Program-made: the position numbers and the translations under genes
Notes under the pieces: generated by a model
Databases searched by the model: none
Told to the model about the DNA's origin: nothing
The model's input: only the letters and a program-made list of their open reading frames with translations
In this document: piece after piece, positions 5,053 to 28,489 of the stretch
Layout of the letters: each line of letters begins with the position of its first letter
Numbering within the stretch: the stretch's first letter is position 1
From: an uncultured Spirochaetales bacterium
GTDB taxonomy: Bacteria > Spirochaetota > Spirochaetia > Sphaerochaetales > Sphaerochaetaceae
DNA: 64,000 bases
Direction: 5' to 3'
Assembly (NCBI GenBank): GCA_949282255.1
Contig: CASDPA010000007.1
Coordinates: 1 to 64,000 of the forward strand

Positions 5053-5328
5053 TATTTGATTCCTCCTTTGTTATGGCTAAGGATAACATGAAAAATACTT
5101 AAAAGCAAAATAATTTATTGTAATATAGATATTTATAAAAAAATATCGATATGATTTTATCTATTTGTCCTTTTCTTGTAAAAATTTTTTTTGTTGCCAT
5201 CTTGTCGTATATGGGTTGTATTTTATGATATTTTTGTTGCAATTTATCACTAATGCAAATATATGGTGTGCATATTTCGGAAAAACGGAATTTTTTGTCG
5301 TATTCATGCCAAAAGTGCTGTCAAATTT
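5053..5328. other. AT-rich intergenic region without genes
   Basis: About 275 bp of strongly AT-rich DNA between the divergent methyltransferase and BMP operons. One short open frame (5165-5350) has no Shine-Dalgarno and a composition unlike coding DNA. It probably holds the methyltransferase promoter and upstream AT-rich elements; I see no repeats or RNA gene. Confidence 0.6.
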
Positions 5329-5329
5329 A

Positions 5330-5359
5330 TTCCATATGACTTTCGTTTGATGATATAAT
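5330..5359 (+). promoter_or_regulatory. Promoter of the BMP-family ABC operon
   Basis: TTCCAT (5330-5335) and a consensus TATAAT (5354-5359) with an 18 bp spacer. Transcription should start near 5366, giving a 5' leader of about 145 nt before the first gene. Confidence 0.6.
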
Positions 5360-5382
5360 CAATAAAGTAGAAACATGAAATA

Positions 5383-5510
5383 GTCAGGGCTTAAGGCTGA
5401 CGGGGTGCAAATCCCTGCCTGACGGATAAGAAGCCTGTGCTTCTAAATCTTTGAAAGGAGAAGCCTCGTTTACGGGTTTGCTCTTATTTCCGTAAACAAG
5501 GCGGTTTGCT
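5383..5510 (+). promoter_or_regulatory. Structured 5' leader RNA, class unknown (riboswitch-like)
   Basis: Several helices can be drawn. GTCAG (5383-5387) can pair with either CTGAC (5397-5401) or the CCTGAC at 5418-5423, which are mutually exclusive choices. CGGGG/CCCTG (5401-5405/5413-5417) closes a 7 nt loop TGCAAAT that resembles a T-loop. AGAAGC/GCTTCT (5429-5434/5439-5444) is a tight hairpin. GCCT-c-GTTTACGG (5463-5475) pairs with CCGTAAAC-a-AGGC (5490-5502). A strong AAAGGAG (5454-5460) lies 50 nt before the ATG, and folding of the last hairpin would bring it to about 10 nt. The GGGGTGCAAATCCC stretch recalls parts of cobalamin and FMN aptamers, but neither full consensus is present. 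Confidence 0.55.
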
Positions 5511-6533
5511 ATGAGAAAAGTATTAGTTCTAGCTCTTGTCCTGTTGCTTGCCATGAGCGTATTTGCCGGCGGCGCCCAGGAAACGAAGGAATCGTCCGAC
5601 GACACGATCAAGATCGCTCTTATCATTGAGAACACCATCGACGACAAGGGCTGGTGTCAGGCCATGCATGACGGAATCACAGCCGCGATGGAACAGCTGC
5701 CCGGCAAAATCGAATACAGCTACTCGGAAAAGATGGCTGTTGTTGATGCAGGCTCGATTGCAAGACAGTATGTTGCAGATGGGTATGATCTCATCATCGG
5801 ACATGGCGCTCAGTACAAGAACATCATTCTTGAGCTTGCCGAGGAATATCCTGATGTATCATTCGCATTTGGAACCAGCAGTGAAATCGGACCTGCAAAC
5901 GTATTTACATACATGCCGGAAAGTGAAGAAACCGGATACCTCTCCGGTCTTATTGCCGGTCTTACCACAAAAGCCAATATTGTCGGTCTTGTAGGCCCTG
6001 TTGACGGAGGTGATGCTGCAAGATACAACAGAGGCTTCGTGCTTGGAGTGCAGAAGGTCAATCCGAATGCAAAGATTCTCGTGACCCACTCGGGATCCTT
6101 CTCCGATTATGTCAAGGCGGGAGAAATCGCGACCAGCCAGATCCAGAACGGTGCGGATGTGCTTACCGGGTCATCACAGCAGGCAATCGGTGCTCTCAGG
6201 GCAACAGCTGAAAGTCCGACAGCACTTTGGCTTGGACAGGATCTTGCCCAGCTCACAACAGAAGAGGGGAAGGCAAAGTGTCTTGCCGCTTCTTCCTACA
6301 ATTATGCAGCTGTCATCATCGGCCTTGTCGAGAAGCTTGAAGCAGGCGTAAAGGGTGGTGAATGCATTCCTATGAATTTCAACAACGGAGGATTCGTATT
6401 CGAGTACAACCCGGCTCTTGAGGATAAGGTTCCTGCGGAAGCCAAGGCTGCTGTCGACGAGGCTCTTGAGACATTTGAAGCCAATGCAGGAGTTCTCTCG
6501 AATTGGTCAAGCGTTGATTATTCAACCCTTTAA
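5511..6533 (+). CDS. BMP-family ABC transporter substrate-binding protein
   Basis: A 340-residue exported protein with a Sec signal peptide (residues 1-about 20, ending VFAGGAQET, without a lipobox cysteine). The mature part has the BMP/PnrA fold: IENTIDDKGWCQAMHDGI, then DLIIGHGAQYKN and AGLIAGLTTKANIVGLVGP. Members bind nucleosides (PnrA, MedBP), and a spirochaete branch (RfuA) binds riboflavin; the ligand here cannot be decided. It heads an operon with one double ATPase and two permeases. The ATG has only a weak local ribosome-binding site and may depend on the upstream hairpin-bridged AAAGGAG. The hairpin at 6543-6561 separates it from the transporter genes. Confidence 0.9.
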   Translation: MRKVLVLALVLLLAMSVFAGGAQETKESSDDTIKIALIIENTIDDKGWCQAMHDGITAAMEQLPGKIEYSYSEKMAVVDAGSIARQYVADGYDLIIGHGAQYKNIILELAEEYPDVSFAFGTSSEIGPANVFTYMPESEETGYLSGLIAGLTTKANIVGLVGPVDGGDAARYNRGFVLGVQKVNPNAKILVTHSGSFSDYVKAGEIATSQIQNGADVLTGSSQQAIGALRATAESPTALWLGQDLAQLTTEEGKAKCLAASSYNYAAVIIGLVEKLEAGVKGGECIPMNFNNGGFVFEYNPALEDKVPAEAKAAVDEALETFEANAGVLSNWSSVDYSTL

Positions 6534-6542
6534 TCTGTATAA

Positions 6543-6570
6543 CCGGGGGCAGGTCCCCCGGGATTTCTTT
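6543..6570 (+). terminator. Intercistronic hairpin after the binding-protein gene
   Basis: CCGGGGG (6543-6549) pairs perfectly with CCCCCGG (6555-6561) across a 5 nt loop, followed by GATTTCTTTT. It is either a leaky terminator or a 3' stabiliser that keeps the binding protein in excess over the membrane components, a common arrangement in ABC operons. Confidence 0.7.
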
Positions 6571-25109: not shown

Positions 25110-26726
25110 ATGCTTAAGGGAACAGGCCGTCCCGTGTATTCAGGAGTGGCCATCGGAAAGATATATGTCTACAAGAAGGCCGAGACCAAGATATATGAGA
25201 AATGCTCGGACAAGGCCAAGGAATTGAAACGTTTTTCCCTCGCACGTGATGAGGCGAGGGCTCAGCTGGATGCGCTTTATGCCAAAACCAAGAGGGAAAT
25301 AGGCGAAGAGCAGGCCGAGATAATCGATGTGCAGAAGATGTTTCTTGACGATCCCGATTATGTCGAAGGGATCGAGGATATGATAGGGCAGGGCTATGGG
25401 GCCGCTTTCAGCGTTCATGAGATAGGAGATGCACAGGCTTCGATGTTCGCATCCCTCGATGATGAATATATGAAGGCCAGGGCCGCTGATGTGCGCGACA
25501 TAAGCGATCGGCTTGTCAGGGTGCTTTCCGGAGCTGATGTCTCTTTCAAGATGACGGAACCCGGAATCCTTTTGGCCGAGGACCTGACCCCCAGCGAGAC
25601 CGTGCAGCTCGATAAGGATAAGATTCTCGCATTTGTCACACGGCAGGGATCTTCCAACAGCCACACCGCCATTCTTGCAAGGGTCATGAACATACCTTCT
25701 CTTGTCCAGACGGATATCGACATAGATCCGAGCCTTAATGGCCGGACGATGATCATCGATGGATTTACAGGCGAGTATTACATAGATCCGGATGATGCGC
25801 TGCTTGCGAAGATGACCGAAAAGAAGCAAAAGGCCAGGGAATACAAGGAAGCCCTTGAGAAATACAGGGGTAAGCCCTCTGTTTCAAAAACAGGCCGCAA
25901 GGTCAAGCTCTTTGCAAATATCGGCAATGTCGATGATATGAAATATGTCATCAGCGGGGACGCAGAGGGCATCGGACTTCTGAGAAGTGAGTTCCTTTAT
26001 CTCGGACGTGATGATTTTCCGACCGAGGATGAGCTGTTTGAGGCCTATAAGAAGGTGGTTGTAGGTCTGAATGGAAAAAGATGTGTTATACGGACCCTCG
26101 ATATCGGTGCGGACAAGAAGGTCGACTATTTCCACCTTGAAAAGGAGGAGAATCCCGCTCTAGGATATCGCGGCATCAGGATATGTCTTTTGCAAAAGGA
26201 TATATTCCGCACCCAGATGAGGGCCATATACCGCGCCAGCGCCTTCGGCCCTGTTTCTGTGATGTTCCCGATGATCATAAGCGTCAAGGAGGTCGAGGAG
26301 ATAAAGGCTTTCTGTGCCCAGGTGATGGCTGAGCTTGCAAAGAAGAACATTCCTTTTGCCCGCGACACAGAGCTTGGAATCATGATTGAGACTCCGGCTG
26401 CGGCCATAATGTCCGACGAGCTTGCAAAGCACGTGGATTTCTTCAGCGTTGGAACAAACGATCTGACGCAGTACACGCTTGCAATCGACAGGCAGAATGC
26501 AAAGCTCGATTATTTCTACGATGCCCATCATCCGGCGCTTTTGCGGCTTTTGGGCATGATTGCGGAAAATGCCCATAAAAATGGTATCTGGGCAGGAATC
26601 TGCGGCGAGCTTGCTGCAGACCTTTCCTTGACCGATACCTTCTTGAAGATGGGGTATGATGAACTTTCGGTATCCCCTTCCAGGATACTCGAACTTAGAA
26701 AGAACGTTATTGAAAGCGAGGTATGA
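25110..26726 (+). CDS. ptsI: PTS enzyme I (phosphoenolpyruvate-protein phosphotransferase)
   Basis: 538 residues from ATG 25110 (AGGAGG 25098-25103). N-terminal HPr-binding helical domain, then the phosphohistidine loop TRQGSSNSHTAILARVMNIP at about 180-199, and a PEP-binding TIM barrel with GIGLLRSEFLYLGRDDFPTEDELFEAY, GYRGIRI, EIGIMIETPAA-type motif (LGIMIETPAAAIMSD), FFSVGTNDLTQYTLAIDRQN and the catalytic Cys in WAGICGELAAD. Somewhat shorter than the ~575 residues of most EI, but all catalytic motifs are present. Confidence 0.97.
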   Translation: MLKGTGRPVYSGVAIGKIYVYKKAETKIYEKCSDKAKELKRFSLARDEARAQLDALYAKTKREIGEEQAEIIDVQKMFLDDPDYVEGIEDMIGQGYGAAFSVHEIGDAQASMFASLDDEYMKARAADVRDISDRLVRVLSGADVSFKMTEPGILLAEDLTPSETVQLDKDKILAFVTRQGSSNSHTAILARVMNIPSLVQTDIDIDPSLNGRTMIIDGFTGEYYIDPDDALLAKMTEKKQKAREYKEALEKYRGKPSVSKTGRKVKLFANIGNVDDMKYVISGDAEGIGLLRSEFLYLGRDDFPTEDELFEAYKKVVVGLNGKRCVIRTLDIGADKKVDYFHLEKEENPALGYRGIRICLLQKDIFRTQMRAIYRASAFGPVSVMFPMIISVKEVEEIKAFCAQVMAELAKKNIPFARDTELGIMIETPAAAIMSDELAKHVDFFSVGTNDLTQYTLAIDRQNAKLDYFYDAHHPALLRLLGMIAENAHKNGIWAGICGELAADLSLTDTFLKMGYDELSVSPSRILELRKNVIESEV

Positions 26727-26730
26727 ATAA

Positions 26731-26988
26731 ATGAAAGAATTCAAGTATGTGATCACCGATGAGCTTGGCATCCATGCCCGTCCGGCAGGACAGCTCGTCA
26801 AGAAGGCCATGGGCTTCAAGAGCACAGTCTCAATCTCTTGTCCAAAGGGGCAGGCGGACTGCAAAAGGATCATGGCAGTCATGAAGCTTGTCGTCAAGCA
26901 GGGTGATGAGGTTGTCCTCAAGATTGAAGGTGAGGACGAGGATGCAGCGGCCAAGGAACTCGAGGAGTTCTTCAAGACCACGCTTTAA
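26731..26988 (+). CDS. ptsH: PTS phosphocarrier protein HPr
   Basis: An 85-residue HPr with the active-site histidine in LGIHARPAGQLVKKA (His at about position 15). The regulatory-serine segment, normally KSIMGV, reads KRIMAVMKL, so the Ser46 target of HPr kinase is replaced by Arg. It follows ptsI by 4 bp. HPr shuttles phosphate from EI to the EIIA upstream. The missing serine argues against Gram-positive style HPr-Ser-P catabolite control. Confidence 0.95.
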   Translation: MKEFKYVITDELGIHARPAGQLVKKAMGFKSTVSISCPKGQADCKRIMAVMKLVVKQGDEVVLKIEGEDEDAAAKELEEFFKTTL

Positions 26989-27049
26989 TCAATTTGAAAT
27001 GCTTTCCCTTTGTTTGTGGGAAGGTTAAATAATCAGGAGGGGTATTTCT

Positions 27050-28489
27050 ATGATGAAAACCTTACAGAGACTCGGAAAGTCTCTCATGTTGCCGGTGGCA
27101 TGTTTGCCTGTTGCCGGTATTCTCATGGGCATCGGTTATTGGATCGACCCGTCTGGTTGGGGCGCAAACAATGTTGCAGCTCTTATCATGATCAAGGCCG
27201 GCGGCGCCCTTGTCGACAATATGGCCATCCTTTTTGCAATCGGTGTAGCTGTTGGAATGTCAAAAGATCAGGAAGGAACATCCGCACTTGCCGGTATCGT
27301 ATCCTGGCTTATGTTCCAGACCATTCTTGGTGGGGTAGCCCCTTCCATCGTTGGTAACATTTCCTGGCTTGATCCTGTTGCTTTCACAAAGGTAAACAAC
27401 CAGTTCATCGGTATTTTCTCCGGTCTCATCGGTGCTGCTTGCTACAACAGGTTCCATAAGACACAGCTTCCTGAATTCCTTGCATTCTTCAGTGGAAGAA
27501 GAAGTGTTGCCATCATGACCGCCATCTCCACGTTGATCATCTGTATCCCGATGTTCTTCATCTGGCCGTTCATCTATGGCCTTCTTGTTGCATTCGGCGA
27601 GGCGATCATCAGCGCAGGTGCTGTCGGTGCCGGAATCTACGGCTTCTTCAACAGACTTCTTATCCCCGTCGGCCTCCATCACGCACTCAACAGCGTATTC
27701 TGGTTCGATGTTGCAGGTATAAGCGATATCGCAAGATTCTGGGGAAGCATGCCTCTTATCGAAGGTGTTACAGGAATCTACATGACCGGTTTCTTCCCTG
27801 TCATGATGTTCGGTCTTCCTGCTGCAGCTCTTGCCATGTATCTGACGGCAAAGGACAAGAACAAGAAGAACGCTGCCGGAATCCTTTTTGCAGCAGCTCT
27901 CTGCTCTTTCTTCACCGGTGTTACAGAGCCTCTTGAATTCTCGTTCATGTTCCTTGCTCCCGGTCTTTATCTTGCACATGCTCTTCTTACAGGAATCTCC
28001 GTTGCAGTCTGTGCAATGCTTCCTGTCAGAGCCGGATTCAATTTCTCTGCAGGCTTCGTAGACTGGATCCTTTCCTTCAATGCGCCTGGTGCAGAGAATC
28101 CTCTTCTCCTTCTTCCGATCGGACTTGTGTTTGGAGCAATCTACTTTGTTGTGTTCTACTTCCTCATCAAGAAGTTCAATTTCAAGACTCCTGGAAGGGA
28201 AGACGATCAGGAAGATGAGCTGAATGTCGAACTTGGAACAAGTGATTTCACAACTGTTGCCGCCATCATCCTCGAAGGTGTCGGTGGAAAGGGTAACGTC
28301 ACAAGCGTGGACAACTGCATCACACGTCTCCGCCTAGAAGTGAAGGATCGTCTGCTTGTCGATGAGAAGAAGATCAAGAGCGCAGGCATCAAGGGAATCA
28401 TCCGCCCGGGAAAGACTTCCGTGCAGGTCATTATTGGGCCGAAAGTGCAGTTTGTTGCGGATGAGTTCAAGAACCTTATGAAGAAATGA
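27050..28489 (+). CDS. PTS EIICB, glucose/N-acetylglucosamine family
   Basis: 479 residues. EIIC membrane domain (about 1-370, 10 segments) with LQRLGKSLMLPVACLPVAGILMGIGYWID, RLLIPVGLHHALNSVFWF, the family signature GVTEPLEFSFMFLAPGLY and FVDWILSF; the last is more like NagE than PtsG. The cytoplasmic IIB domain (about 400-479) carries the phosphocysteine in SVDNCITRLRLEV. There is no IIA domain, so it needs the crr product. ATG 27050 has AGGAGGGG upstream. Substrate is probably GlcNAc or glucose; the two cannot be separated by eye. Confidence 0.92.
   Translation: MMKTLQRLGKSLMLPVACLPVAGILMGIGYWIDPSGWGANNVAALIMIKAGGALVDNMAILFAIGVAVGMSKDQEGTSALAGIVSWLMFQTILGGVAPSIVGNISWLDPVAFTKVNNQFIGIFSGLIGAACYNRFHKTQLPEFLAFFSGRRSVAIMTAISTLIICIPMFFIWPFIYGLLVAFGEAIISAGAVGAGIYGFFNRLLIPVGLHHALNSVFWFDVAGISDIARFWGSMPLIEGVTGIYMTGFFPVMMFGLPAAALAMYLTAKDKNKKNAAGILFAAALCSFFTGVTEPLEFSFMFLAPGLYLAHALLTGISVAVCAMLPVRAGFNFSAGFVDWILSFNAPGAENPLLLLPIGLVFGAIYFVVFYFLIKKFNFKTPGREDDQEDELNVELGTSDFTTVAAIILEGVGGKGNVTSVDNCITRLRLEVKDRLLVDEKKIKSAGIKGIIRPGKTSVQVIIGPKVQFVADEFKNLMKK

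Follow-up and report, generated by a model that had tools for sequence, protein, structure and literature searches.

The gene coding for a BMP-family substrate-binding protein (5511-6533; Pfam Bmp, 9e-35) in the window, i.e. the whole stretch of 64,000 nucleotides analysed from an uncultured Spirochaetales bacterium (genome G000), is preceded by a leader of approximately 140 nt that probably represents a hairpin-bridged translation start. In such an arrangement, the true Shine-Dalgarno (SD) sequence would be AAGGAG (5455-5460), parted from the AUG codon at 5511 by a stable hairpin (5463-5502). Folding of this hairpin would cut the 50-nt gap to approximately 10 nt, allowing the 30S subunit to hold the SD and the AUG together, and it is inferred that ribosomes use this bridged site. 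A first-pass annotation had proposed a structured leader for this gene, which was confirmed in outline; the distance of 50 nt between SD and AUG and the exact filling of this gap by the last hairpin were absent from it. Judged by sequence comparison, the leader is a genuine, selectively conserved, cis-acting RNA structure that is lineage-specific.

Gene context and leader architecture

The leader elements and the BMP gene are located on the forward strand. According to the sequence, ATG 5511 is the sole possible start of the BMP gene, because an in-frame stop codon occurs directly upstream (CCG TAA ACA AGG CGG TTT GCT ATG). Similarly, in those orthologues that were read by eye, the AUG is fixed as start codon by in-frame stop codons and by the lack of alternative start codons. 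Genes for an ABC ATPase and for two permeases come next. A G+C-rich hairpin with a T-rich tail (6543-6561), situated between the BMP gene and that of the ATPase, is probably a partial terminator, lowering the expression of the remaining operon. The nearest NCBIfam system of the importer is a 'putative B6 ABC transporter', far below the cutoff. Riboflavin had been named, next to nucleosides, as a ligand carried by BMP systems, which was not supported here, as RfuA-like binding was not indicated and the PDB matches of the BMP protein were other BMP proteins. Upstream of the gene, a putative -10 box TATAAT (approximately 5355-5360; TATAATCAAT, invariant in all three species possessing the leader) suggests a transcript start around 5367. 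Further upstream, a 60-bp AT-rich block (5106-5166) is nearly invariant in the three species, and the adjacent 170 bp are approximately 60% identical in the most distant of them. This block, of which a similar one precedes the gene in G020, G021, and G031, may be an operator or a divergent promoter. In addition, TTGTTGCA and TGCAA motifs are repeated upstream of the BMP orthologues of several members of the genus (e.g. L008, L009, and L010) and resemble the target sites of a DNA-binding regulatory protein.

The leader starts with a small three-way junction closed by P1, formed by GTCAGG (5383-5388) and CCTGAC (5418-5423), of which all six pairs were kept in the three species, with one G-C to G-U change. 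Two mutually exclusive pairings had been annotated for GTCAG, but the nearer partner, CTGAC (5397-5401), is CTTAT in G003 and CTCAA in G034, so that the alternative pairing is not conserved and only P1 is. Within the junction, P2 (5389-5391/5395-5397) is a weak 3-bp stem, assigned with low confidence in view of its shortness, with one compensatory C-G to A-U change in G034. P3 (5402-5416), a GGGG-UGCAAAU-CCCY hairpin with a T-loop-like loop, is invariant except for one G-U/G-C wobble. Of the 5-bp stem annotated earlier around TGCAAAT, four pairs are conserved, and the fifth (C5401-G5417) is C-G in G000, U-G in G003, and lost in G034. The two further hairpins announced before the AUG were both retrieved. 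Hairpin 4 (AGAAGC-CUGU-GCUUCU; 5429-5444) has twelve out of twelve paired bases invariant and a pairing probability of 0.79-0.94. The bridging hairpin GCCUCGUUUACGG...CCGUAAACAAGGC (5463-5502) occupies the gap between SD and AUG; 12 of its 13 pairs and the bases of its GCUCU loop are invariant, the outermost pair being lost in G034. For the three species, the predicted folding energies are -18.0, -20.3, and -14.3 kcal/mol, with 10-12 nt left outside the stem. A possible weak second SD, AAGGCGG (5498-5504), lies partly within the hairpin stem, its AGG being predicted as paired with a probability of approximately 0.9 or more. It runs into the pre-AUG segment GGUUUGCU (5503-5510), which is invariant in the three species and may be a partner of the P3 loop.

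Position of the Shine-Dalgarno sequence among orthologues

A bridged start is indicated by a comparison of the upstream regions of 43 BMP orthologues in the genus. In 34 of them, the distance between SD and AUG is 4-9 nt, the SD motif being the same, and the other nine have their SD 33-50 nt upstream. The latter belong to two clades, namely clade 1 (G000, G003, and G034) and clade 2 (G017, G067, G071, G063, G002, and G010). In all nine cases, one predicted helix fills the gap between SD and AUG, leaving 10-13 nt unpaired, with a minimum free energy of -14.2 to -20.3 kcal/mol, versus a mean of -3.9 kcal/mol for the same region of the other 34 orthologues. Equal or better folding was obtained for 0-19 out of 500 shuffles of these gap regions (2, 1, and 19 dinucleotide shuffles in the three clade-1 species). 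Of the 54 ORFs in the window, 43 are preceded by an SD at the usual distance; among the 11 others, a strong SD further upstream is found for the BMP gene alone.

The clade-2 stem, GC(A/G)(G/A)GG(A/G)AGAC/GTTTTCCTTGC, varies by wobble at four of its 11 pairs. Pairing was kept in 98.5% of the cells (all but one of 65), versus 48-63% when the strands were slid. The changes are all one-sided wobbles and are not in excess over column shuffles; the bridging stem of clade 1 is almost invariant, so that it receives no covariation support from this clade. The protein tree separates the two clades and places clade 1, at moderate support, together with G014, G001, and G031, which possess ordinary start sites. 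The displaced-SD arrangement therefore has either two origins or a history of several losses.

Clade 2 has the SD-hairpin-AUG layout without the upstream domain, and a usable SD adjoining the AUG is absent from it. In clade 1, by contrast, the weak and mostly paired AAGGCGG is present, and it is possible that this motif is the SD instead, hidden by a hairpin with a sequestering role. The lack of a second SD in clade 2 argues for bridging over sequestration. Against a bridged site counts the prediction that AAGGAG is partly paired in the free RNA. Several clade-2 leaders (L111, L112, L113, and L117) begin with a small hairpin of the GGACUU...AAGUCC type, after which come an A/T-rich spacer and then the SD. 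This resembles hairpin 4 and its spacer in clade 1; a common origin is possible. No convincing second copies of the clade-2 element were found upstream of other genes, except for a possible look-alike in L127 (1534-1571; contig C89 of G033), where another gene has TAAGGAGG, a GC-rich 7-bp hairpin, and an ATG approximately 6 nt later. This may represent a terminator or, alternatively, one more hairpin-bridged start.

In clade 1, the domain made up of P1, P2, P3, and hairpin 4 would be placed in front of the bridged site and could act on it. The P3 loop GCAAAU (5407-5412) is able to form six pairs with GUUUGC (5504-5509) directly 5' of the AUG, both sides being invariant in the three species. 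The resulting pseudoknot would block initiation, and expression could therefore depend on the formation of this contact. Six pairs were reached by 0.6% of random octamers and by 7% of octamer permutations, and none of the 40 other orthologues reached five pairs. This complementarity suggests a translational switch, as a lead for an off-state, although with 7% of the permutations reaching six pairs the match could be due to chance after multiple looks. A combination of bridge and lock, in which the upstream T-loop domain would respond to a ligand or protein by making or breaking the pre-AUG loop contact, would be a new type of RNA switch acting on translation, and is considered a rather doubtful extension.

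Sequence conservation and occurrence of the leader

DNA searches revealed the leader in three of the 48 genomes of the genus, namely G000 itself and the uncultured Spirochaetales assemblies G003 and G034. The leaders of G000 and G034 share 89% identity (94% in the 3' half), versus 53% for third codon positions of the gene, 58% for the upstream intergenic region (5201-5340), and 48% for the downstream intergenic region. The contrast between 89% and the 48-60% of neutral sites and neighbouring non-coding DNA indicates purifying selection. Folding of the whole leader is favoured over that of shuffled sequences to a modest degree (z-scores of -2.1, -2.15, and -1.2 in the three species). The changes among these species comprise one compensatory change (P2) and two G-C/G-U wobbles (P1 and P3), and 158 out of 500 shuffles were as good. 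Hence, the comparison of homologous leaders that had been advised earlier yielded strong conservation in three species, but no significant covariation, since three sequences are too few for covariation statistics.

A covariance model of positions 5380-5449 retrieved no further member, whether among the genomes of the genus or among 395 genomes of Spirochaetia; the hits with E-values of 0.03-0.5 that were read lacked the junction, looked like coding DNA, and were ascribed to chance. Similarly, no further credible member emerged when 84,980 species genomes were scanned for the pattern. The other pattern hits, in species genomes and viral contigs, were judged from their sequence to be due to chance, two of them being group II introns. 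The viral contig L100 (IMGVR_UViG_3300029448_001291), scoring 28 bits, was not accepted as a homologue, as it had been selected by the pattern itself. On its minus strand, this phage-like contig carries two GGGTGCAAATCCC hairpins approximately 390 nt apart (around 3860 and 4250), at or near gene ends, for which ARAGORN found no tRNA and Rfam no match. A second copy of the element was not found in the genome of G000.

Several other assignments were rejected. A tRNA-like element was discarded, as ARAGORN found only a tRNA-Leu at 865, and so was an attenuator, as the leader contains no intrinsic terminator. The inverted repeat GTTTACGG...CCGTAAAC occurs at a single place in the genome and is hence not a general operator. 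The window also contains a CRISPR-like array (143-710), with a counterpart on contig C28 of G000 (26417-27104), in which a 28-bp repeat, GTTTGCTATCGTATAGATAGCTTAGAAA, recurs every 60 bp. Together, these two places hold 22 copies of the repeat, which is absent from the remaining 47 genomes of the genus; the listed ORF at 317-595 results from translating the array. The repeat shares GTTTGCTAT with the pre-AUG segment, but a link was dismissed, since the repeat is absent from G003 and G034, in which the segment is conserved.

Relation to known translation starts

The arrangement resembles that of phage T4 genes 25 and 38, in which the SD is too far from the AUG and the intervening RNA structure restores a functional spacing. 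This spacing is cut from 22 to 5 nt in gene 38 and from 27 to 11 nt in gene 25, and destabilising mutations lower initiation (PMC3014915). These are the 'split' or 'accommodated' ribosome-binding sites of T4 (PMC3014915, citing Malys & Nivinskas 2009). Like the present one, the arrangement of gene 25 is of restricted origin, having arisen in a single subclade among related genomes. The present arrangement differs from the phage sites by its position on a bacterial chromosome, its gap of 33-50 nt instead of 22-27 nt, and its larger stem. Furthermore, it occurs in two separate clades of one genus, clade 1 adding an upstream structured domain. 

In Escherichia coli, expression of thrS is regulated by ThrRS, and the hairpin of this gene precedes the SD and separates the standby region from the SD-AUG part, unlike the hairpin of the present leader, which lies between SD and AUG. 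This chromosomal gene has a split ribosome-binding site, within which a long hairpin is accommodated by the ribosome (PMC3936740). The leader is best filed as a hairpin-bridged ribosome-binding site of the known phage type, in a chromosomal setting and with an added upstream domain.

Alternative explanations

The position of the leader before a transporter gene, its invariant T-loop-like loop, and the burial of AAGGCGG in a hairpin would fit a riboswitch, with P1, P2, P3, and hairpin 4 as the aptamer and either the last hairpin hiding AAGGCGG or the contact between P3 loop and pre-AUG segment as the expression platform. A scan against Rfam 15 yielded no match at the gathering score, in line with the absence of a known RNA class noted before, so that only a new riboswitch class would be possible. 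The best E-value in the region (0.16) was for a microRNA family, on the other strand and over coding DNA. According to the first-pass annotation, a portion of the leader recalls one arm of cobalamin or FMN aptamers, the rest of those consensus elements being absent. With the FMN riboswitch (RF00050), the leader shares a GGGUGnAAAUYCC hairpin with a T-loop-like loop, but only this hairpin and part of P1 could be aligned (11.7 bits versus a cutoff of 66.2), the rest of the multi-helix aptamer being missing. This fragment and a weak rli28 fragment were judged to be due to chance, and no FMN riboswitch was found anywhere in the genome of G000. The string GGUGCAAAUCC presumably resembles the cobalamin riboswitch (RF00174), but the Rfam scan gave no cobalamin match for the leader. 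A further point against a riboswitch is the restriction of the leader to three close species, it being absent from the searched genomes mentioned above and from 40 other species with an orthologous importer. Sensing is therefore not tied to the transporter substrate across the genus, which goes against the ligand argument of the first-pass annotation, and the narrow range of the leader, although compatible with a young riboswitch, gives it no support. In addition, no conserved and appreciably probable alternative pairing was found that would open the last hairpin, the GTCAG/CTGAC switch helix is not conserved, and clade 2 shares the layout of SD, hairpin, and AUG without the upstream domain. 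The analysis yielded no sign of a small-molecule ligand, and the riboswitch proposal is supported in part at most. A new riboswitch class is hence regarded as unlikely.

Binding of the leader RNA by a regulatory protein, for instance an autoregulating or ribosomal one, much as ThrRS binds on E. coli thrS, is likewise improbable. The invariance of hairpin 4 and of the bridging hairpin, including its GCUCU loop, suggests sequence-specific recognition, and the split site of thrS provides a precedent, but no candidate protein emerged, and a second copy of the element is absent from the genome. There is a small chance that the displaced SD serves the translation of a short upstream frame, followed by coupled re-initiation at the start codon of the BMP gene. 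In G067, G002, and G010 of clade 2, an ATG occurs 12-16 nt after the SD, opening a frame of 5-8 codons whose end coincides with the gene AUG or closely precedes it. Such an ATG-started frame is lacking in the remaining three species of clade 2, however, and the only candidate start in clade 1 (TTG in GGGTTTGCTC) is TCG in G034; a hairpin, not a frame, is common to all nine leaders. A chance structure in a neutral leader, for which the modest whole-leader z-scores and the lack of significant covariation might plead, is scarcely credible, as it is contradicted by the difference in identity between leader and neutral sites and by the occurrence of hairpins at equivalent positions in both clades. 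A hairpin-bridged translation start is thus retained as the preferred reading.

Implications

The literature searched documents hairpin-bridged starts mainly for a few genes of phage T4. If the present reading is true, two clades of a single bacterial genus would share this layout in front of the same transporter gene on the chromosome. The 34 sister species with conventional starts would then constitute a natural control for studying how and why such sites arise. It would also be a warning that genome annotation and statistics on SD spacing may overlook hairpin-bridged sites.
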